Source: a virus
Reading direction: 5' to 3' (one strand)
IMG/VR virus record: IMGVR_UViG_3300045454_000043
Coordinates: 1 to 39,175 of that record
Length of the DNA stretch: 39,175 nucleotides
Shown here: positions 2,484 through 21,297 of the stretch, in pieces
Layout of the letters: the number at the start of each line of letters is the position of its first letter
How positions within the stretch are numbered: the first letter of the stretch is position 1
Notes under the pieces: generated by a model
Seen by the model: only the letters and a program-made list of their open reading frames with translations
Told to the model about the DNA's origin: nothing
The model's database searches: none
Translations under genes and position numbers: made by a program

Positions 2484-2823
2484 CCTGTTCGTTTCCTCTC
2501 GCAAATCCTTCGATGCACAGCTCGACGGCGAGCTGCAGGTGGTACTCGCTGACGGTGAAGCACTCCGTCCATCCGCGACCGCGGAAGAGCAGGTCCTCTG
2601 CCTCGCGCCAGTTGCGGAACGCCTGAGGGAACCAGCGACGTAGTCGTCTGAGCGCCCATCTCTCCCACGAGCCGTCGGTGTTGCGCATGCACAGGATGAT
2701 TCGGGCGCCGGACATGCGGAGCATCGCGAGGCGTGAGCTGCGCCAGGCGCGACCGACCTTGAGGACGTTGGCGTGTGGCCAGTAGGCGACGTAGGTCATC
2801 GCGTAGGTGGGGCGGGCGCTCAT
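1783..2823 (-). CDS. GIY-YIG/T5orf172-like protein, over-long frame
   Basis: ATG 2823 overlaps the stop of the upstream recombinase (ATGA). Residues 8-100 read as a compact domain (YVAYWPHANVLKVGRAW, a second hydrophobic strand, then EDLLFRGRGWTECF), resembling the T5orf172/MUG113 branch of GIY-YIG domains. A canonical GIY motif is not present, so nuclease activity is uncertain. The frame stays open for 346 codons. From about residue 115 it becomes low-complexity Arg/Gly/Ser/Ala sequence running out of frame over the initiator-like gene. The real product probably covers only the first third (about 2823-2480). The stop may have been lost by mutation or a base error, or the gene may truly overlap its neighbour. 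Confidence 0.45.
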   Translation of the reverse strand: MSARPTYAMTYVAYWPHANVLKVGRAWRSSRLAMLRMSGARIILCMRNTDGSWERWALRRLRRWFPQAFRNWREAEDLLFRGRGWTECFTVSEYHLQLAVELCIEGFARGNEQGVNTNVAAEDHQRSGSTVRRLSARPARSEGDGPRPVAQDRPCRQETPGHHRDRRRAVPGGRPSGSRDSRRAAHPDARGVWVLGDLCGRRRGMARTTPTTARRPTRPGRNITGTPSDGLHGALAAFHGIRGCGEGARVGARESAGEGARGGGGRRPEVGRVEGASSDSVASTSGAAAASLSSSAGVCGSSGRYSGALRAMRHRSEVPREMVGAGTLRGSVGRVRRGQHRGSIAQ

Positions 2824-3659
2824 GCGACTCCGTCCTTTCGTGGCTGGTCGTTGGCGGCGAGGTCTTCGACGGCGTCGCGCATGACGCGGTGATCAAACTC
2901 GACGTAGCGCTGGGTGGTTCCGACGGATGCATGGCCGAGCATGGCCTGGACGAGGAGGATGTCCCGCCGTGAGGCGTAGAGCCGGGTCGCGAACCGGTGG
3001 CGGAGGGTATGCATCGTGAAGCCGTCAGGGAGGAGGCGGGCGATCAGCTTCCCGACGTACCGGGGCGATAGGTGGCCGTCGTCGTCGCCGGGGAACAGGT
3101 ACCCGGAGGGCGCGCCGGCGATGGCTTCGCCCAAGCTGCGGGGCAACGGGACCACGCGGTCCTTGTCGCCCTTGCCGTGCACCACGAGGCTGTAGTCGAC
3201 GAAGTCCTCGACGAGATCGTCGGTGTGCACCTTCGCGACCTCGGCCCGCCGCATCCCTACCTCGGCGGCCAGGCGGAGCATGAGCGCCTCGCGCGGGTGG
3301 GCGGCGAGCAGCGCTTCGTGGTACGCGCGGTCAGGAGCGGGCCGAGGCTTGCCCATCGACGATGGCACCTTTGGAAGGCGCTCGGCGATGTTCTCCGTCA
3401 CGAACCCTTCGGCGAGCGCCCAGGCGTAGAAGCGGACGTAGGTCGTGCGGCGGCCGCGGCGCGTCTCTTTGGCCCAGTCCTTCGAAGCAACGAAGTCCCG
3501 AAGCTCGTCGACGGTGAGATGCCAGGGGGTGGCGCTCACGTTCCGGGCAAGGTGCTCGAGCTGGTGGCGGCGCGCCTGTATCGTCTGCTCGCTCTTGCTA
3601 CCGGCGCGCTCGTGACGGAGGAAGGCTTCGATGGCGCGGTGCCAGCGTCGATCCAGCAT
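2820..3659 (-). CDS. Tyrosine recombinase, XerC/D-like (279 aa)
   Basis: ATG 3659 follows AGGAAGGA. An N-terminal SAM-like core-binding domain (about 1-100) precedes the catalytic domain, with R137 (GMRRAE), K163 (HGKGDKDR), H217 and R220 (HTLRHR), H243 (LGH) and nucleophile Y252 (TTQRY). All catalytic positions are present, so it is probably active. The catalytic half is visibly close to the integrase at 13148-14080 (shared HGKGDK.RVVPL, GYLFPG, LRHRFA and LGH motifs), suggesting duplication or exchange. It sits deep in the early operon, away from attP, so it may serve genome resolution or a second recombination reaction. It is coupled by ATGA to the next gene. Confidence 0.9.
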   Translation of the reverse strand: MLDRRWHRAIEAFLRHERAGSKSEQTIQARRHQLEHLARNVSATPWHLTVDELRDFVASKDWAKETRRGRRTTYVRFYAWALAEGFVTENIAERLPKVPSSMGKPRPAPDRAYHEALLAAHPREALMLRLAAEVGMRRAEVAKVHTDDLVEDFVDYSLVVHGKGDKDRVVPLPRSLGEAIAGAPSGYLFPGDDDGHLSPRYVGKLIARLLPDGFTMHTLRHRFATRLYASRRDILLVQAMLGHASVGTTQRYVEFDHRVMRDAVEDLAANDQPRKDGVA

Positions 3660-6101: not shown

Positions 6102-7382
6102 TCACCGGCTCCGACGAAGGAACCGGCGGTGCTGCGATACGTGGACGCGCCTCAGCTTCGCCAGCGCGTAGTTCGCGCGCCGCGCCTGCATCACCTCGGC
6201 CGAGGCTCCGGCAACCTCACGGCGCGCTGCCTCCAGCTGCTTCTGGCCGTCGGCCCACTGGATCAGTGCCAGCACCATGGACCTCTGCGCAGCGTCCCTC
6301 TCCTCGGTGACCTTGGCGAGCTCCTGCTCGAGCCGCACCGCGAGGCTTCGGGCTTCCTCGCGCGATGTCAGGAGCTCCTCGCGCCCCTCGGGCACATCAC
6401 CCCATTCCGGCCGGGGGTGCGCGTCGATCGCCGACGAGAGCGACGGCGCCTGCTCCACAGCAGCCTGGATCGCAGCCTCGAACGCTTCATCACGCCACTC
6501 CGGCGCTGGTGACTGCTCGATGTCGGCAACGCGCTCTCTGGTCTCGTCCAGGATGTCGGTGAACTCGTTGGACTGAGCAACCGGCGACACGGCCACTGCC
6601 ACCTGATCTTCGATCGGCGCATCGACCCGCTTGGCGCCCTCCTTCGATCCTTCTCCCGAGTGCGCTGCGTAGGCGGCGAGCGCGTCCTGGGCGATGCGTC
6701 CCTTGATGGGGACGCTGGGGAATCCGTTGGCTCGGCACCAGTCGCGGATCTCGCGGAGCTTCCGGGTCTTCTGTGCGGGGGTGAGGCCGTGGGTCCATTG
6801 GTCGGTGGTGATCTCGGGTGCGGGCGCGGCCTTGCGAGGGGCTGTGGTCTTCTTCTTGGTGGGCTTCGAGCGGTTCGTGGTGGGTGCCGGGTTCTTGGGC
6901 ATGGGTGCTTCCTTGCGGTGGGAGTGGGTGGGGTGCCCCATCGCCTCGACCTTGGCTACCGGCTCGCTGGGTGCGGTCGGCGCCTCTCTCTCGATCGCCG
7001 GGGCGCCGGCGTCTTCCTGGGGGGTGGTGTCATGGGCGCGCTCTGCAAGGGGCTGTGCAGGCTTGGGGACCGCGGGGGCGCGCCGCGTGGTGGCCGTCCC
7101 GGCGCTGCGCGTCCCCGCGGTGGTCTCTTCGCGGATGGTGATCGCGTTGTCGATGGGCGACGGCGTGACCGGGGTGGGTCGGAGCCCGAGTCTTCGGGCG
7201 ATCGCGGCGGCGCGGGGGTCGCGGCGGCGGGCGTCCATGTAACGGCGTTCTTCGCTGATGAACCTGAAGTAAGCGGTCTCGCAGCTGAGGCCGTGCACGG
7301 GGGTGGCGGGGCACTTCTCGTGCTTGGTGCAGCCGGCTTCGTAACCTTCCGGGGTGCCGTGCTCCCGCGGTCTTGGGCTCAC
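6102..7382 (-). CDS. Lsr2-like DNA-binding domain protein (426 aa)
   Basis: GTG 7382 overlaps the previous stop (GTGA). Residues 7-34 have a Cys/His motif (HGTPEGYEAGCTKHEKC) found in other actinophage small proteins. Residues 60-200 are disordered, Pro/Ala/Thr-rich and end in a lysine-rich patch. Residues 209-243 match the C-terminal DNA-binding domain of Lsr2 (REIRDWCRANGF, then KGRIAQDALAAY). The last 150 residues form a long coiled coil. Lsr2 is the actinobacterial xenogeneic silencer that binds AT-rich minor groove; a phage copy could silence, counter-silence or bind phage DNA. An internal ATG at 6902 with AAGGAAG six bases upstream could yield a 266-residue form holding only the Lsr2 and coiled-coil parts. 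Confidence 0.72.
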   Translation of the reverse strand: MSPRPREHGTPEGYEAGCTKHEKCPATPVHGLSCETAYFRFISEERRYMDARRRDPRAAAIARRLGLRPTPVTPSPIDNAITIREETTAGTRSAGTATTRRAPAVPKPAQPLAERAHDTTPQEDAGAPAIEREAPTAPSEPVAKVEAMGHPTHSHRKEAPMPKNPAPTTNRSKPTKKKTTAPRKAAPAPEITTDQWTHGLTPAQKTRKLREIRDWCRANGFPSVPIKGRIAQDALAAYAAHSGEGSKEGAKRVDAPIEDQVAVAVSPVAQSNEFTDILDETRERVADIEQSPAPEWRDEAFEAAIQAAVEQAPSLSSAIDAHPRPEWGDVPEGREELLTSREEARSLAVRLEQELAKVTEERDAAQRSMVLALIQWADGQKQLEAARREVAGASAEVMQARRANYALAKLRRVHVSQHRRFLRRSR

Positions 7383-12758: not shown

Positions 12759-13151
12759 ATGTCGTCATCAGAGGCATCAACTGTCGCCCCGAACGTGGAC
12801 GCCGAGATCGGTCGTCGCGTTCACCAGCTCATGTGGGACCGCCGCATCACGCAGACCGCTTTTGGCGCGCGGGTCGGTATGGACCAGAGCTCGGTCGCGA
12901 AGCGCCTGCGCGGGAAGCTCTCCTGGAGCGCTGCGCAGGTCGTGGCGGCCGCCGACGCCCTCGGCACTACCGTGGGCTATCTCTTCGGTGAAACGACAGA
13001 AGCTCCCCGCCCTCGCGAGGAGGACGGGGAGCAGATGGTGCGCCCCCTGGGACTTGAACCCAGAACCCACTGGGTATGGGCCGAGCCGGCGGCCGATCGC
13101 CCACGGAACCGCCGGAAGCTGAACCGCGGCCCACGGAACCGCGGCCAATGA
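12759..13151 (+). CDS. XRE-type immunity repressor with attP in its 3' end (130 aa)
   Basis: ATG 12759 is chosen over GTG 12753 because it fits the leaderless promoter. Residues 14-76 form an XRE-type helix-turn-helix (recognition part about 30-51: TQTAFGARVGMDQSSVAKRL). There is no peptidase or oligomerisation domain. The tRNA-derived attP core (13036-13070) is read as residues 93-104, including GLEPRT, the familiar translation of a reversed tRNA T-arm. Residues 105-130 are a basic Arg/Asn/Pro tail existing only in the unintegrated genome. Integration would replace this tail with residues encoded by the host. Its stop overlaps the integrase start (ATGA). The size and layout resemble the BPs-type repressor, whose viral form is longer than its prophage form. 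Confidence 0.8.
   Translation: MSSSEASTVAPNVDAEIGRRVHQLMWDRRITQTAFGARVGMDQSSVAKRLRGKLSWSAAQVVAAADALGTTVGYLFGETTEAPRPREEDGEQMVRPLGLEPRTHWVWAEPAADRPRNRRKLNRGPRNRGQ
13036..13070 (-). other. attP core: 3' end of a tRNA gene
   Basis: On the minus strand 13070-13036 reads as a tRNA 3' end: variable-loop bases, a 5-bp T-stem CTGGG/CCCAG around the loop TTCAAGT, seven acceptor bases GGGGCGC, discriminator A and CCA. The rest of a tRNA is absent, so this is no functional gene but the crossover segment by which integration would rebuild a host tRNA. From memory the bases look most like an actinobacterial tRNA-Lys, but the isotype is not proven. Confidence 0.85.
13099..13142 (+). repeat. Direct repeats beside attP, candidate integrase arm sites
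   Basis: GCCCACGGAACCGC occurs at 13099-13112 and 13129-13142. The inner GAACCGC occurs three times at exact 15-bp steps (13106, 13121, 13136). Repeats of this kind within 30-110 bp of a core are typical arm-type sites bound by the N-terminal domain of tyrosine integrases. They also encode the Arg/Asn-rich tail of the viral repressor. Confidence 0.55.
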
Positions 13152-14106: not shown

Positions 14107-14553
14107 ATGATCTTGTCCGGCCGCGTCGCCGCCGCTACCCTCGTCGCTATCCTCGCAACCGGGACCCTCGCCGGCTGCGCGGCGCCGAGCCCACAAACGC
14201 CTCAACTCGACGACGCAGCTCAGGGTGCGGCCACGGCGTCGCCCAACGTCGAGCCCTGCACCTACCTCGCCGGCGGGGCTTTCGACGACGCGGTGGACTT
14301 CTTTGGCACTTACGCAGCGGATCGCGAGGCTGCCGACCCGGCCGTGCTGACCGACGTTATCGAGCGGTTCGAGACCGCACAGCAGAGCTCCACAGGCTCC
14401 CTCTCCCTGTCCCTCGGCCGCGCGCTGGAGCAGTTGCACGCCATCGACCAGCGCTACACCGCCGGCACGCCGGCTGATCCAGACGTCGATTACGAGACGT
14501 TGCGCGACGCCCTCGACACCTCCCTGGCCGCTTGCGCCACCGCGCTGGAGTAG
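14107..14553 (+). CDS. Lipoprotein (148 aa)
   Basis: ATG 14107 is preferred over ATG 14089 because a -10-like TAGGCT lies just upstream. A signal peptide (residues 1-22) ends in the lipobox LAGC, so the mature protein should be lipidated at C23 and held outside the membrane. The rest is helical and acidic, with cysteines near residues 50 and 143 that may pair. Phage-encoded lipoproteins expressed from the lysogen often block superinfection by binding receptors or incoming DNA-injection machinery. That role is inferred from position beside the immunity genes; no family is recognised. Confidence 0.72.
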   Translation: MILSGRVAAATLVAILATGTLAGCAAPSPQTPQLDDAAQGAATASPNVEPCTYLAGGAFDDAVDFFGTYAADREAADPAVLTDVIERFETAQQSSTGSLSLSLGRALEQLHAIDQRYTAGTPADPDVDYETLRDALDTSLAACATALE

Positions 14554-14608: not shown

Positions 14609-14917
14609 GTGACAAACAATCGCCGCTACGAGGCGCACTACGACCGCCTCAACGATCGACGCATCGAGCAAGGCACCAGCCGGCGCCGCGCGTGCACGCT
14701 CGGGAGCAACGCCTACGGGCCGCAGCCAATCCAGTGGGCGCCCCGCGGCCAGCTGCCGAAGGTGTGGGCGTGGATCTCTTGGGCCGATGATCCCGCATCC
14801 CGCATCCCCGCGGAGGCGTCCGGCTGGAACGACCGCGTCGTCATCATCGAGTGGGAAGACGACGGCGGTCGACGCAGCGTCGTGGTGTGGCGCAACGCCG
14901 TCACCCGCCGGTCATGA
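14609..14917 (+). CDS. Hypothetical protein (102 aa)
   Basis: GTG 14609 lies 12 bases after GGAGGAAGG, a long spacing. The N-terminal 40 residues are basic (YEAHYDRLNDRRIEQGTSRR). A Trp-rich beta part follows (VWAWISWADDPASRIPAEA, then RVVIIEWEDDGGRRSVVVWR), like a small sheet domain. Its stop overlaps that of the converging second integrase gene by six bases. No function is recognised. Confidence 0.6.
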   Translation: MTNNRRYEAHYDRLNDRRIEQGTSRRRACTLGSNAYGPQPIQWAPRGQLPKVWAWISWADDPASRIPAEASGWNDRVVIIEWEDDGGRRSVVVWRNAVTRRS

Positions 14918-15823
14918 CGCGATCCGGTCGGCGATGCCCGACAGGTGCGCACTGACCTTGTAGGCGGCGTGACGGTCGAGGCTGAGCCGGTTCCGGTCGT
15001 AGTGCTCGACCATGCGGATGTCCGCCCACCGGCCAGCTTCCTGCACCTCGCGGAGGCTGGCGCCGGCCTCGAGCGCGATCGACGCCATCGCATGCCGCAG
15101 CTGGTGCGGGTGGATGTGACCTAGCCCGGCCTGCTTCCCGAGGGTGCGGAGCCACCGGTAGACGTCGTGGCGGGTGAGGTGTCGCCCAGTGCGGGTGCGG
15201 ATCAGGTGCCCCTCTGTGCGGGCGCCGGCGGCGTGGTCGAGGATGCGGGCGATCAGCGGTGGGATGGGGATGGTGGCGGGCTTGCCGCCCTTCCCGACGA
15301 GACGCAGCACGCGGTGGCCGCGGTCGTACCCGGCGAAGTCCTCGATCCGCACCGCGGCCGCCTCGGACGCGCGCAGGCCGAGGCCGCCGAGGAGGATCAC
15401 GAGGGCGGCGTGCTGCGGTGACCGCTGGTCGGCGGTGAGCAGCAGCTTCTCGAGGTCGTGGCGGGTGAGCCCGGTCAGCCGTGCGGGGTCGTAGTACACC
15501 CGCGGGCGCCGCACCATGACGGTGGGGTCGACGGTGATCCGGGCGTCCGCGAGAGCGACCTTGAAGAACGAGCTCAGCACCACGAGGTAGCCGGCGACGG
15601 TGGAGCGCTTCAGGCCCTCTCCGTCCTGGAGGTGGTGGCTGAACAGCTCGATGTCCGCGCGGGTGGCGTGGAGGATGTCGGGGCCGTACCAGTCCTGGAA
15701 CCGTCGCAACGCTGCGGTGTAGGTCTTGTGGGTGGGGCCGGTGTAGCGGGCCAGGAACGTCGCGACCGCGACATCCGATTCGGTCAGTGCGCGCGCGGCG
15801 CGGACAGGGCTATTGTGAGCCAT
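14912..15823 (-). CDS. Second tyrosine integrase (303 aa)
   Basis: ATG 15823 follows GGAG at 7 bases. It has a SAM-like N-terminal domain (about 15-100) and a catalytic domain with the Arg of GLGLRASE, the Lys of LVGKGGK, the HPHQLRH box (His and Arg) and nucleophile Tyr in MVEHYDRN. The LGH motif is replaced by AGRW, with Trp in the usual His position, a known natural variation. It is clearly diverged from the other two recombinases (no HGKGDK.RVVPL or YLFPG motifs). It lies only 0.8 kb from the attP-linked integrase, on the opposite strand. Which enzyme works on the tRNA core is decided here only by adjacency. Confidence 0.9.
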   Translation of the reverse strand: MAHNSPVRAARALTESDVAVATFLARYTGPTHKTYTAALRRFQDWYGPDILHATRADIELFSHHLQDGEGLKRSTVAGYLVVLSSFFKVALADARITVDPTVMVRRPRVYYDPARLTGLTRHDLEKLLLTADQRSPQHAALVILLGGLGLRASEAAAVRIEDFAGYDRGHRVLRLVGKGGKPATIPIPPLIARILDHAAGARTEGHLIRTRTGRHLTRHDVYRWLRTLGKQAGLGHIHPHQLRHAMASIALEAGASLREVQEAGRWADIRMVEHYDRNRLSLDRHAAYKVSAHLSGIADRIAS

Positions 15824-15930
15824 GGTCGTCTCCAGGTAAGGCTGGTTTCGGCTAGGCCCGGCGAGTGTTGGTAGCACTCGTTCGGGCCGCTCCCATCTTC
15901 GGGAGACCCCGATTCTAGGCACGACGAAAA
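15824..15930 (-). promoter_or_regulatory. Leader of second integrase with hairpins and a -10
   Basis: On the minus strand TAGAAT (15917-15912) is a -10-like element. Between it and the gene lie CTCCC/GGGAG and a longer imperfect hairpin, whose core is CGAGTG/CACTCG around seven bases, extended by GGCCCG/CGGGCC (about 15856-15890). The region could hold regulatory structure or an attachment site for this integrase; no tRNA fragment is evident. Confidence 0.35.
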
Positions 15931-16058: not shown

Positions 16059-16274
16059 CTAGTCGTCTCGCGCGCGGTCCCATCGGACGATCACGTAGGC
16101 GAGGACGCCGTAGACGAGGTAGATGACTGCGGCGGAACCGACCCAGCGAAGCGTCCAGTCGAGGGTGCCGGGGTCGGGGACGATCCAGAGGTTCAGGTAG
16201 CCGAGGCCAGCGAGAGCGAGCGCGGTGACCACCAGCCAGTAGGGGAACCATCGCGCGAGCATGCCGCTGAGCAT
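16059..16274 (-). CDS. Two-span membrane protein (71 aa)
   Basis: ATG 16274 is chosen; ATG 16262 is also possible. Two membrane segments (about 9-28 and 38-60: YWLVVTALALAGLGYLNLW and GSAAVIYLVYGVLAYVIV) are joined by an acidic Asp/Pro loop, and the tail RWDRARDD is cytoplasmic. It starts back to back with the polymerase/ligase-like gene and ends before the strong terminator. A role with that neighbour or in exclusion is possible; no family is named. Confidence 0.6.
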   Translation of the reverse strand: MLSGMLARWFPYWLVVTALALAGLGYLNLWIVPDPGTLDWTLRWVGSAAVIYLVYGVLAYVIVRWDRARDD

Positions 16275-16295
16275 AGCGGCCGACACGGAGTGAGA

Positions 16296-16301
16296 TAGGG
16301 T
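16296..16301 (+). promoter_or_regulatory. -10 element of the polymerase/ligase-like gene
   Basis: TAGGGT lies six bases before ATG 16308, the same geometry as the repressor and xis-like starts. No clear -35 is seen. It gives the gene its own promoter opposite to the late operon, as expected for a gene expressed in the lysogen. Confidence 0.45.
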
Positions 16302-16307
16302 GCCCGC

Positions 16308-17633
16308 ATGCAGACGATCACCCGAGCGGGCGGCGCCATCGTTTTTGGAGCCGTCGTCGTCGGGGCGGTCCTGCTCACCCTCTCGCAGCCGGTGATCGGT
16401 GTCGCCGTGATCGTGCTGCTGCTGTCCGGGCTGTGGGCGTGGCATCACCCGATTGCAGCGGCGAGCACGCTGGCGTTCCTGACAGCCGCGTTCCCGAAAG
16501 CCGGCGTCCGGGTCGCGGACTTCCCATTCCCGGTGTTCCTGTTCGGGCTCATCCTCGCGGTGCTGATCATGTGGGCGAAGACGCCCCGCGCCGCCCACGG
16601 ACCCGTGACGCTCCTCGCCGTCGGCGCTTACCTCGTGTTCGTCACGGCCAAGTCGGCGCAGTTCATGGGTGACGGTGGCGCGAGCGTGTTCGCGTTCGTC
16701 GCCTGGGCGGGACTCCCCATCATCATGCTCGCGTTCAGCACCAGCACGACCGGGTTCGATCCCCGGTTCGGTCGAGCTCTGCAATGGGGGTTCCTGCTGT
16801 CCGTCGCGTACGCGTGCGTGCAGTTCGTCGGCGGCATCGAAACCACCGCCGTCCCCGGTCTCACATACGCCCTGGGCGACGACATCACCGAGAAGCACAA
16901 CGTCATCTACGTGGAGTCCGGGGAGAACTACTCCAAGATTCCCTCGACGTATCATAACGGCAACATCTACGGGATGACCGCCGCAGTGTTCCTGCTGTAC
17001 TCCACGATCCGGCTGCTGCACCGCAAAGGCACGAAACTCGACATCGCGATTCTGGTTGGGGCGACGCTCGCGATCGGGCTGTCCGGGTCACGGACCGCGA
17101 TCCTTGCCGCCGCGATCCCCGTGTTCGTACTCCTCCTCGGGCGTGGCAGCTTCCGGTGGCGGTTCGGGATCGTCGCAGTGACAGCAGTCGCGGCGATAAC
17201 CGTGCTCACGCTGCAGCCCGACCTCGCCCGCCGCTACACCATCGACGCAGTTCTCGCGTCGGGTGGCGCCGGCCGCACCACCGCATGGGAGACCACGATC
17301 GCCAGCATGCAGCCGTTGGACTACATCTTCGGGATGCAGTCCCGCGCGATCGTGGTTGACGGGTGGGCGGGTGTCCTCGTGCAGCTCGGCATTGTCGGCG
17401 TAGCTCTGCTGATCGTCGCCGTTCTGACGTTGATGAGGCGGCGACCAGAGTGGCGGGTCATCCTGCTCGCGCTCCTGATCGGCCTCGTCATCGACTCGAC
17501 CTACATCACTTTCCCGACGTGGTTCATCCCCGCCGCCCTGTTCGGCCTGACCCTCGCCACCGACCCTCGGGCCCCCGCACCGCACCCCACACAGAGGCGG
17601 TCGGGGGCCCGAGCACGCGAACTCGTGCGCTAG
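16308..17633 (+). CDS. O-antigen polymerase/ligase-like membrane protein (441 aa)
   Basis: This polytopic membrane protein has about 10-12 hydrophobic segments. A long polar loop sits between two of them (about 185-220: ALGDDITEKHNVIYVESGEN). After it comes GLSGSRTAILAA, the signature of the Wzy/WaaL (O-antigen polymerase/ligase) superfamily, and a second loop with GGAGRTTAWE. These enzymes join undecaprenyl-linked sugar chains to each other or to an acceptor on the outer face of the membrane. In a Gram-positive host the substrate would be a cell-wall glycan. It stands alone on the plus strand within the late region, with a likely leaderless promoter, and converges on the tail-fibre gene, sharing CTAG as both stops. 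Phage D3 of Pseudomonas encodes a Wzy that converts the host surface and blocks superinfection; the same role is inferred here. Confidence 0.72.
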   Translation: MQTITRAGGAIVFGAVVVGAVLLTLSQPVIGVAVIVLLLSGLWAWHHPIAAASTLAFLTAAFPKAGVRVADFPFPVFLFGLILAVLIMWAKTPRAAHGPVTLLAVGAYLVFVTAKSAQFMGDGGASVFAFVAWAGLPIIMLAFSTSTTGFDPRFGRALQWGFLLSVAYACVQFVGGIETTAVPGLTYALGDDITEKHNVIYVESGENYSKIPSTYHNGNIYGMTAAVFLLYSTIRLLHRKGTKLDIAILVGATLAIGLSGSRTAILAAAIPVFVLLLGRGSFRWRFGIVAVTAVAAITVLTLQPDLARRYTIDAVLASGGAGRTTAWETTIASMQPLDYIFGMQSRAIVVDGWAGVLVQLGIVGVALLIVAVLTLMRRRPEWRVILLALLIGLVIDSTYITFPTWFIPAALFGLTLATDPRAPAPHPTQRRSGARARELVR

Positions 17634-20089
17634 ACCGGCGGTGAGGCGACGATGGTCGCAAGATCGAGCGTGACCAAACGTCCGGGCTCGTTGTTGAGCG
17701 ACGCGAGGCCGCCGCTGTCCCCGTTCGGACCGGTCTTGGTGACCAGAATCGTCAGCTTCCCATCGCCAAGGCCACGGGAGTCGAAGGGCAATTCCGCGTT
17801 ACCGAGGTTTTCGTCGAGGAACACGAAGGGCAGGAGACGGGCGACATCGCCGGGGGTAATCTCTCGGACCCACCAGCGTGTGAATGACCGAGGCGCGACG
17901 GCGCCCTCAATGCCGACCACTGGATAATCGGCGTAGTGGCAGAACACCCGCGATCCGTACGCCCACGTCTGCGGGCGCGATCGGAACGTGGGTGATGCAC
18001 CCGGAGCGAAGACGAGGTCATCCTGGTGCCAGAGGGCACCATCCCACCAGTAGTGACGGAGGATCGACGGCCCGCTCGTCGCGGGCGAACGCACCCACAT
18101 AACCGAGTGCGGGCGGTTGGACGAATCGACCGCCGCCCCACACTGGTTGATCTGGTCGAAGAACCCTGTAGCGATGAACGGTGCAGTGTGCTGCGGCAGG
18201 GTGGTCGCCGGGACGGCGGTTCCGTCGGCGGTGGTCCACGCCGTAGCGGAGGCGTCGGTGCTGCGGATGTAGCCGAAGTCGTGCGTGGTGGCGAGGTCGT
18301 CGGTTTCGCGCCACATGAAGAACAGGTGCCACTTCCCATCCGGGCCGATGGCCGGGGTGTTGACGTAGGGCGACTCGTTCTGCGCGGCCCCGTCCACGGT
18401 GAAGCCGGAGATGGGGCGGGAGATGTGCTCCCACCGCTGGTTGGTGAAGCTCCATCGGTTGATGAAGTACGCACCGTTTCCGGACCCACCCTGCCGCACG
18501 ACCAGCCACAGCGACCCGTCCAGCGGGCTGGTGAGGAACTGCGGGTAGGTGATGGAGTTGCGGTTTGCGGACGGAATGCCGGAGACGTCGGGGACGCTCC
18601 ACGCGGTGATGTTGTGCGCGGCGTTGGAGCGGACGATCTTGAGCGGGTCGTCGTGGTGGTCGCCCGAGACATGGATGCGGCCTTCACCGTCGACGCCGAT
18701 GGAGAACGTGTTGTGCCCGTCCGGGTCGACCGGTGATCCGAGCGGGTTGCCGCTGATCGTGGACAGGTCGAACGTGGACCACGCGCCCCAGGTACCCGCG
18801 GTGCGGACCCGCTTGCCGATGATCGGCTTGCGGGCGTTGTCCACCCACACGGCGTACTGGTTGTCACCCACGGTCACAACGTTGTCGCGGATGAACGCGC
18901 CCGCGTTGTTGTTGTAGGTGTTGTCCAGAGTGCCAGGCAGCGGTGACTCCTGACGGCGGTTCGCGGCGAGACGCGCGACCGGGCGGACGATGACTTTGAT
19001 GAGGCCGATCTGGTTCGCGCCGAGGCTACCGACGCCCGTGGTGCGGACGGTGAAGCGGGTCGCGCCCGGGGGGATCGTCACGGCGCTGGCAATGTTCGTG
19101 CGGCGCACGCGGCGCTGCGCGGGCGCGGTCAACAGCAGCGTCTTGGTCGATGCGGACTCGTTCAGCGACGACAGGTTCGTGCCCTCACCGACCGCGGCCC
19201 AGCGAAGCTGCAGCTGCACCGTGCCGGCGACGGCGGACACGTTGGTCCACTCGATGTCGATGTCCACCAGCGTCGGCGTGCGCTGCCCCAGGTTGATCGA
19301 GCACCCGACCACCTGTGTCGCGTTCGGCGACATCAGCCACATCGGCAGGCCGTGACTCGTCGTGTTCAGCGTGGGGGTCCCCGCGACAGTGGCGAACTCC
19401 ATCGCCGGGACGAACAGCCCCGAGGACTCAGCGACAACGGTTCCCCAGTCCGTCGCCGCCACAGCAGCGTCGACAGCAGTCGCCGCGGCAGGAGCGACGC
19501 TGGCCACAATCGCGGAACTAAAGGCCTGTTCCGTCTGGGTGCCGGGCGTGGTGATTCGGGAGGCGATGAAGCTGTCCGAGTCCACCAGCGCCGCGGCCGC
19601 CTCCGACGCCGCCGCCTGCGCCTCGGCGACGAGGGTCCCCCAGAAGTCTGGCACCGAAACGACGTCGCCCGCGGTCGAGGATGCCGGCACGGTCTTGTCA
19701 AGATCCACGACACCGTCACCGGCGGGGAGCACGAACGGGCCGAGGGTCACCGGCGGGATGCCGGCGGCACGGTTGTCGCTGGTGAGGAACTCGACCAGCG
19801 CGGTGTAGCGGTGCGAGTAGGCGTCCGGCGCGGAGACGTCGATAATCGCGCCGGTGCGGGCATCCTTCCACCCCTGCACATCGGTGCGAGGCAGCACGAT
19901 CTGCACCTCGCTGCCCTCCGCCGACGTCGCGGCGACACGGAGGTTCTCGAACCGGTATCCGGTGGCATCCCAGATCAACGACCTGGACCCGGTCACCGTC
20001 ACCCGCACCTTCAGCAGGTCGGCGGACTCGAGGACCATCGCACCGCCGACGCTGATGACGCGGGTAGGAACGTACTCGGGGAAGGGCAT
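17630..20089 (-). CDS. Tail fibre/minor tail protein with BNR-like domain (819 aa)
   Basis: ATG 20089 follows GGAG. The first 110 residues look like a tail-attachment domain. Residues about 150-210 are Ala/Ser-rich and probably a trimeric coiled stalk. Residues about 215-370 form a beta domain. The C-terminal 400 residues resemble the BNR-repeat (beta-propeller) family seen in sialidases and some polysaccharide lyases (DGHNTFSIGVDGEGRIHVSG, then DHHDDPLKIV, and later WHLFFMW). It is likely to bind, and perhaps cut, a host surface glycan. It is the last late-operon gene and adjoins the surface-glycan-like membrane gene. Catalytic residues cannot be assigned by eye. Confidence 0.72.
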   Translation of the reverse strand: MPFPEYVPTRVISVGGAMVLESADLLKVRVTVTGSRSLIWDATGYRFENLRVAATSAEGSEVQIVLPRTDVQGWKDARTGAIIDVSAPDAYSHRYTALVEFLTSDNRAAGIPPVTLGPFVLPAGDGVVDLDKTVPASSTAGDVVSVPDFWGTLVAEAQAAASEAAAALVDSDSFIASRITTPGTQTEQAFSSAIVASVAPAAATAVDAAVAATDWGTVVAESSGLFVPAMEFATVAGTPTLNTTSHGLPMWLMSPNATQVVGCSINLGQRTPTLVDIDIEWTNVSAVAGTVQLQLRWAAVGEGTNLSSLNESASTKTLLLTAPAQRRVRRTNIASAVTIPPGATRFTVRTTGVGSLGANQIGLIKVIVRPVARLAANRRQESPLPGTLDNTYNNNAGAFIRDNVVTVGDNQYAVWVDNARKPIIGKRVRTAGTWGAWSTFDLSTISGNPLGSPVDPDGHNTFSIGVDGEGRIHVSGDHHDDPLKIVRSNAAHNITAWSVPDVSGIPSANRNSITYPQFLTSPLDGSLWLVVRQGGSGNGAYFINRWSFTNQRWEHISRPISGFTVDGAAQNESPYVNTPAIGPDGKWHLFFMWRETDDLATTHDFGYIRSTDASATAWTTADGTAVPATTLPQHTAPFIATGFFDQINQCGAAVDSSNRPHSVMWVRSPATSGPSILRHYWWDGALWHQDDLVFAPGASPTFRSRPQTWAYGSRVFCHYADYPVVGIEGAVAPRSFTRWWVREITPGDVARLLPFVFLDENLGNAELPFDSRGLGDGKLTILVTKTGPNGDSGGLASLNNEPGRLVTLDLATIVASPPV

Positions 20090-20679: not shown

Positions 20680-21297
20680 TCACTCGATAAGTTCGGGCGC
20701 CGCGGGGGTGCAGGCGCCTTCGGTGGGGGATGTGATGACGCACGTCTGCTGGGTGCCGAGCGCGTCGGTGAAGGTGAAGCTGAACGGGAACGCGGACTGA
20801 CCGGCAGGTCCGGGCTCGCCTTTGGGTCCTGCGGGACCTGCCGGCCCCTGTGGGCCTACGACAGACTCGCCCGGTGTTCCGGGCGCCCCGTCTGCTCCTG
20901 GTGGGCCTGACGCGCCCGTGGCGCCGTCCTCGCCCGGTTCTCCCGGTGCACCCTGGTCGCCTGTCGGGCCGGGTGGGCCGGGGACACCTCGCGGTCCGGT
21001 CTCGCCGGGCTCACCCGCCTCACCAGGCACCGTGACGACGTCGGCCGGTGCGTCTCCGTCAGGGTCCTGGCCGAGCTCGAGCAGTTGGTCGTACAGATCC
21101 TGAGCGTTCAGTTGGGATGCGTGGAGGTCGTCGAGGAGAACGCTGATCTGTTCCGCCTGCCGAGTGTTGCGGTCGTTCGCCGCGGCGAGGCGGGTGGACA
21201 GGTTCACGATCGTGAACGTCCCGAGCGCGAGCAATGACACCGACATTGCGGCGATCAAGGCGATGAAGAGCGCTCGAGCTCTGAATGCTCTGGTCAC
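20680..21297 (-). CDS. Membrane-anchored collagen-like protein (205 aa)
   Basis: GTG 21297 starts three bases after the previous stop. Residues 9-32 form a membrane anchor. Residues 33-78 are a coiled-coil stalk ([20 protein letters not shown]). Residues 92-166 are Gly-X-Y triplets with one interruption (GESVV at 143-147). A small C-terminal domain with two cysteines follows. Collagen repeats are common in phage tail fibres, but an N-terminal membrane span in the lysis cassette points to an anchored, trimeric surface or spanin-like protein. Which of these it is remains open. Confidence 0.75.

Follow-up and report, generated by a model that had tools for sequence, protein, structure and literature searches.

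The stretch of viral DNA analysed here (39,175 nucleotides, positions 1 to 39,175 of IMG/VR record IMGVR_UViG_3300045454_000043; below, the window) carries a gene for a predicted Wzy-type polysaccharide polymerase at 16308–17633 on the plus strand. We consider it probable that this is a Gram-positive counterpart of the D3-like conversion by polymerase swap, in which the prophage Wzy is made from its own leaderless-type promoter. The lysogen of this temperate phage, a Gram-positive soil bacterium, can probably re-link its coat polysaccharide and thereby shut out related phages.

The gene starts with ATG and encodes a polytopic protein of 441 amino acids. A polytopic reading frame with a GSRTA motif at this place had been described in the first-pass annotation, and it is borne out exactly: the motif comprises residues 260–264 (nt 17085–17099), and SGSRTA residues 259–264. 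GC content by codon position is 0.64/0.49/0.87. The frame is kept in three other phages with 62–64% protein identity, and in comparison with these three phages the substitution level is 0.48–0.53 at third positions versus 0.20–0.22 at second positions. Since the frame is conserved and the changes fall mostly on third positions, 16308–17633 is no chance ORF; taken together, the codon GC pattern, the conservation and the third-position excess indicate a real gene under purifying selection. The gene is flanked by the integrase-repressor region (12.7–15.9 kb) and by the end of the late operon, which lies on the minus strand. It runs opposite to this operon, as had been claimed, and its 3' end overlaps that of the tail fibre gene at the latter's stop codon. 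This neighbour (17630–20089, minus strand) encodes a receptor-binding tail fibre or spike of 819 amino acids with a BNR_4 domain (E 2e-45), so the BNR-like fibre that had been placed beside the gene is indeed there.

Profile and structure comparisons agree with the earlier assignment to the Wzy/WaaL superfamily. Pfam PF04932 (Wzy_C) matches the window protein with E 9e-6 and 26 bits, below the gathering cutoff of 31.7; Wzy_C is also matched in three further members of the family, and other members score 24–27.5 bits, again below the cutoff. Five of the eight family members match NCBIfam TIGR04370 ('oligosaccharide repeat unit polymerase'); the window protein gives no hit in NCBIfam. A profile of the polymerase found no match among PDB sequences, PHROGs gave no significant family, and tblastn against INPHARED phages and PLSDB plasmids gave no match. 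An AlphaFold2 model of middling confidence (pLDDT 64, pTM 0.67) was aligned with VIA-align best to WaaL (7TPG; Z 15.1 over 307 residues, rmsd 5.4), far above the rest, with the caveat that a high Z can arise by chance for helical bundles. The next structures were FtsW/RodA (Z 6–8), which are relatives to be expected. Comparison of a predicted structure with Wzy/WaaL, as the first-pass annotation had proposed, thus puts WaaL at the top, though plain Foldseek gave no match at E ≤ 0.001 and WaaL surfaced only with the second-look aligner. A Wzy is expected to have 10–14 transmembrane segments and two large extracytoplasmic loops; the predicted helices, with loops at about residues 175–216 and 303–352, fit this. 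Pseudomonas Wzy has an RX10G motif in both large loops, and Shigella has RX15G. The present family differs from Pseudomonas Wzy in that RX10G is confined to one loop and that the two loops are both acidic: in the alignment of eight members R309 and G320 of the second loop are invariant (R323 follows shortly after), and the motif is absent from the first loop.

By sequence search the polymerase family is rare. It occurs in 4 of 7 Plantibacter genomes, in one Arthrobacter and in 1 of 366 Microbacterium genomes; the family sample gave 4 of 398 (all four being those Plantibacter genomes) and the order sample 1 of 396. Three IMG/VR phage contigs have a homologue, among them the prophage carried by Microbacterium sp. 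CH12i. Cellular relatives are confined to exopolysaccharide clusters of Plantibacter and Arthrobacter, with 42–48% identity over nearly the full length and the same conserved loops. The neighbours of the Plantibacter homologue are a Bac_transf protein of CpsE/WcaJ type, a Wzz-kinase, an LMW-PTP, a WsaF-type protein and several GT4/GT2 transferases, and the homologue is the sole Wzy-like gene detected in these Wzx/Wzy-type clusters, where the flippase was assigned by eye. In Plantibacter G269 the flanking cluster genes are 77–97% identical, yet an unrelated Wzy_C protein fills the same slot. It follows that this slot belongs to the polymerase and that the polymerase is exchangeable against a common set of transferases. 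The idea that the Plantibacter copies are hidden prophages was rejected, as polysaccharide genes lie on both flanks. In Arthrobacter sp. H14-L1 the homologue stands between transferase genes and a group made up of the CpsE, phosphatase and Wzz genes. The same stretch (L006:9971-14300) also shows wzy abutting a lysis-type membrane protein, 62% identical to Arthrobacter phage proteins, together with a LysM fragment, an endolysin-like fragment and IS remnants; possibly a decayed prophage left wzy behind in the locus, a trace of movement from prophage to locus. If the conversion reading is true, it would account for the movable nature of the wzy slot in polysaccharide clusters of Microbacteriaceae.

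Four largely different phages carry wzy in the same position, in convergent orientation to the gene of the receptor-binding protein, and in the tree their Wzy proteins form one clade against the chromosomal ones (support 100/100) with long branches. The four share little else: the window phage has head genes in common with the CH12i prophage, and the pair of wzy and a small membrane protein gene in common with the metagenomic phage contigs L002 and L004. The receptor-binding proteins differ in kind, being BNR_4 in the window, Mtd_N in L004 and a pectate-lyase-like pair in CH12i; those of L002 and L004 are near each other over most of their length. Judged from these comparisons, wzy has moved among phages that otherwise differ. 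The earlier proposal of a temperate phage with a Gram-positive host is supported, since one relative sits integrated as a prophage in Microbacterium sp. CH12i. As to the host group, the closest match to the major head protein is in Microbacterium phage Min1 (49%), the fibre N-terminus is nearest to Microbacterium phages, and an attP-like core corresponds to the tRNA-Lys(CTT) 3' end of Microbacteriaceae. The exact 28-nt attB was found in 0 of 59 Microbacterium genomes. Arthrobacter phage RadFad has a small membrane protein and an esterase in the same reverse-strand slot past the late operon (L054:4283-5776), perhaps another surface-modification module. Elsewhere in the window a membrane-anchored collagen-like protein is encoded in the lysis/tail region (20680–21297, minus strand), and 6102–7298 (minus strand) has an Lsr2-like stretch inside a longer sequence (PHROG 1223, E 1e-6).

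Regarding expression, the earlier claim that the gene has its own promoter is plausible in a modified form. A sigma-70 consensus scan found no match for it; instead, a leaderless-type −10 box, TAGGGT (16296–16301, plus strand), stands 6 nt before the ATG, which has no Shine-Dalgarno sequence. The box recurs as TAGTGT in L002 and L004, TAGGCT in L005 and TAGAAT in L006, and TAGNNT is found 6–8 nt before the start in L002, L004, CH12i and Arthrobacter. In the window such boxes precede 4 of 57 genes, namely those of the repressor, a lipoprotein, the polymerase and the small membrane protein, where the chance level is 0.33% per position. The Poisson probability of at least four boxes is 4e-5; because the start of the small gene was chosen with the box in view, we also give the value for at least three without this gene, 9e-4. 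The set fits what one expects to be switched on in a lysogen and suggests expression there. The HTH repressor (12759–13151, plus strand) carries in its 3' part the attP-like end of tRNA-Lys(CTT) in reverse (core about 13036–13070), just upstream of a tyrosine integrase. Such a layout of repressor, tRNA end and integrase is known from the integration-dependent immunity of mycobacteriophage BPs (PMC4557955); here it occurs in a phage of the Microbacteriaceae group. There are three tyrosine recombinase genes in this 39-kb phage (13076–14080, plus strand; 14912–15922 and 2820–3659, both minus strand), and the second shows about 45% identity to integrases from phages of Arthrobacter; RadFad, one of these phages, itself has two. 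A role of the extra recombinases in phase switching is possible. The box-bearing lipoprotein gene (14107–14553, plus strand; predicted lipobox LAGC) has no homologue in INPHARED and is a candidate for an exclusion protein expressed in lysogens. PADLOC gave no match for wzy, the small membrane protein, the lipoprotein or 14609–14917.

The small gene (16059–16262, minus strand) is divergent from wzy and encodes a predicted two-helix membrane protein of 67 amino acids; its own box, TATGCT (16270–16275, minus strand), lies 7 nt before the ATG at 16262. Neither this gene nor the homologues in chromosomal polysaccharide loci figured in the first-pass annotation. A two-helix protein of 64–67 amino acids is divergent from wzy in three of the four phages and is absent beside wzy in CH12i. 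The window protein is about 41% identical to its counterparts in L002 and L004, which occupy the same position; outside these two contigs no similar protein was found, nor any match in PHROGs or INPHARED, and it does not resemble gp33 of RadFad, which occupies a similar reverse-strand slot. Iap of phage D3, a protein of 31 amino acids, mimics TM2 of Wzz (PMC12004945). The protein described here is longer and has two helices and no shown similarity to Iap; by its place and size it is nevertheless a candidate Wzy partner with a possible Iap-like function. A more far-reaching version, in which a complete and independently assembled Gram-positive seroconversion cassette combines a divergent, leaderless re-linking polymerase with a new two-helix inhibitor that silences the host Wzy, we regard as tentative and on the whole doubtful.

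The fibre gives some indication of the receptor. The closest solved structures to its BNR domain are the Bacteroides BNR_4 enzymes 4IRT, 5MVH and 5MUK, and the L-rhamnose-alpha-1,4-D-glucuronate lyases 7ESL/7ESK are also near. The Bacteroides enzymes include rhamnosidases acting on the same L-rhamnose-glucuronate disaccharide. The WsaF family, which the Plantibacter cluster encodes, is associated with rhamnosyl transfer. From the likeness of the fibre domain and the presence of WsaF one may reasonably guess that the receptor is an exopolysaccharide containing rhamnose and uronate. If the conversion reading is true, it would also point to the phage receptor in a host group with little-known surface glycans.

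The mechanism that we propose is as follows. The prophage would make an integral-membrane Wzy of the Wzx/Wzy pathway from the leaderless-type promoter, while the host builds its repeat units on undecaprenyl and moves them to the outer face of the membrane. There the prophage Wzy would join these units with its own linkage, replacing or competing with the host Wzy. The exopolysaccharide or capsule to which the glycan-recognising fibre of this phage binds would thereby be altered, and related phages would fail to adsorb. Released progeny would be spared loss on sister lysogens. As Iap does in D3, the small divergent protein may act to weaken the polymerase of the host. The enzymatic activity, the linkage change, the exclusion and the role of the small protein are inferred. 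The first-pass annotation had read the gene as a conversion module that remodels a wall glycan; the module layout stands, given the separate orientation, the leaderless-type promoter and the mobility, and the likely target is recast as a Wzx/Wzy-made exopolysaccharide or capsule rather than the wall glycan as such.

The earlier wording 'polymerase/ligase-like' left room for an enzyme of the same fold that passes a finished glycan or a repeat unit to an acceptor (cell wall or protein) and does not polymerise. The nearest solved fold is that of WaaL and the Pfam family bears the name 'O-antigen ligase', but Wzy and WaaL have a common fold, so the fold leaves the choice undecided. What favours a polymerase is the position in the last large loop that we take to hold the catalytic His of WaaL, which is Asp or Glu in all eight members in the motif alignment (D351 in the window protein). 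The same conclusion follows from gene context, because homologues sit in the wzy slot of Wzx/Wzy-type clusters as the only Wzy-like gene detected, and in G269 that slot holds a different Wzy_C gene. Moreover, the host group has no LPS, and lipid A-core, the acceptor of WaaL, is missing in Gram-positives. A ligase is thus distinctly unlikely, and the product is better called a Wzy polymerase.

A polymerase could also act without changing the receptor, altering the amount or length of polymer (biofilm, desiccation, grazing) and raising the fitness of the lysogen while phages are not excluded. In line with this, Plantibacter has a gene of this family among its normal exopolysaccharide genes, but wzy always adjoins the gene for the receptor-binding protein in the four phages, and those proteins are of several unrelated kinds; the window and CH12i fibres bear domains of glycan-active type, and the known phage Wzy cases alter linkage. 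We regard this explanation as unlikely. It is very improbable that the phage picked up wzy from a host only recently and carries it as cargo of no use to itself. The border between late operon and integrase is a frequent site of acquired genes, which is where wzy lies, but the phage-specific clade with its long branches, the pattern of purifying selection, the occurrence in four phages and the conservation of promoter boxes and partner gene all speak against a passenger. Conversion by polymerase swap remains our preferred reading.

The nearest lysogen is Microbacterium sp. CH12i. Besides the integrated prophage with its wzy copy it has, elsewhere, a polysaccharide cluster related to that of Plantibacter (Wzz 56%, initiating transferase 54%, GT4 49%, GT 39%), whose own Wzy matches Wzy_C with E 1e-13 and has no significant overall similarity to the prophage Wzy. 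With D3 in Pseudomonas and WzyPh1 in Acinetobacter, too, a host wzy meets a different phage wzy (PMC4815439, PMC9241936). CH12i offers a directly testable pair, since one sequenced strain contains both the prophage polymerase and that of the host.

For the O-antigens and capsules of Gram-negative bacteria, conversion by exchange of the polymerase is a classic theme. In D3 lysogens the linkage is changed and superinfection is resisted, and D3 encodes a polymerase of Wzy_C type together with a small hydrophobic protein (PMC4815439, PMC12004945). The Pseudomonas unit (Wzy-beta, Iap and a third gene; also in phi297 and PMG1) is likewise that of a temperate phage with these two proteins, but it acts on Gram-negative LPS, whereas here no third gene is seen and the two genes are divergent with leaderless-type promoters. 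The Acinetobacter baumannii prophage polymerase WzyPh1 (K127) has a proven effect on capsule linkage, and like the phage copies described here it is kin to Wzy of other loci (K loci in that case), occurs in unrelated prophages and meets a host with its own Wzy, as seen here for CH12i (PMC9241936). It differs in its Gram-negative host, and it is not known to have a divergent small membrane protein. Salmonella epsilon15 has a Wzy_C protein and an inhibitor of the host polymerase, and epsilon15 conversion and VG_p25 of VarioGold resemble our case in having a Wzy_C protein in a temperate phage, although the target there is Gram-negative O-antigen (PMC4815439, PMC9658991). The Plantibacter and Arthrobacter sp. 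H14-L1 Wzy proteins are chromosomal, with a biosynthetic cluster around them, and fall in a clade separate from the phage copies. No Wzy of a Gram-positive phage was found in open-access text. If our reading is true, the actinobacterial case would mean that the same strategy arose where LPS is absent. The kind of system is known from Gram-negative phages, while the host group, the promoter arrangement and the partner protein are new as far as open-access text shows.
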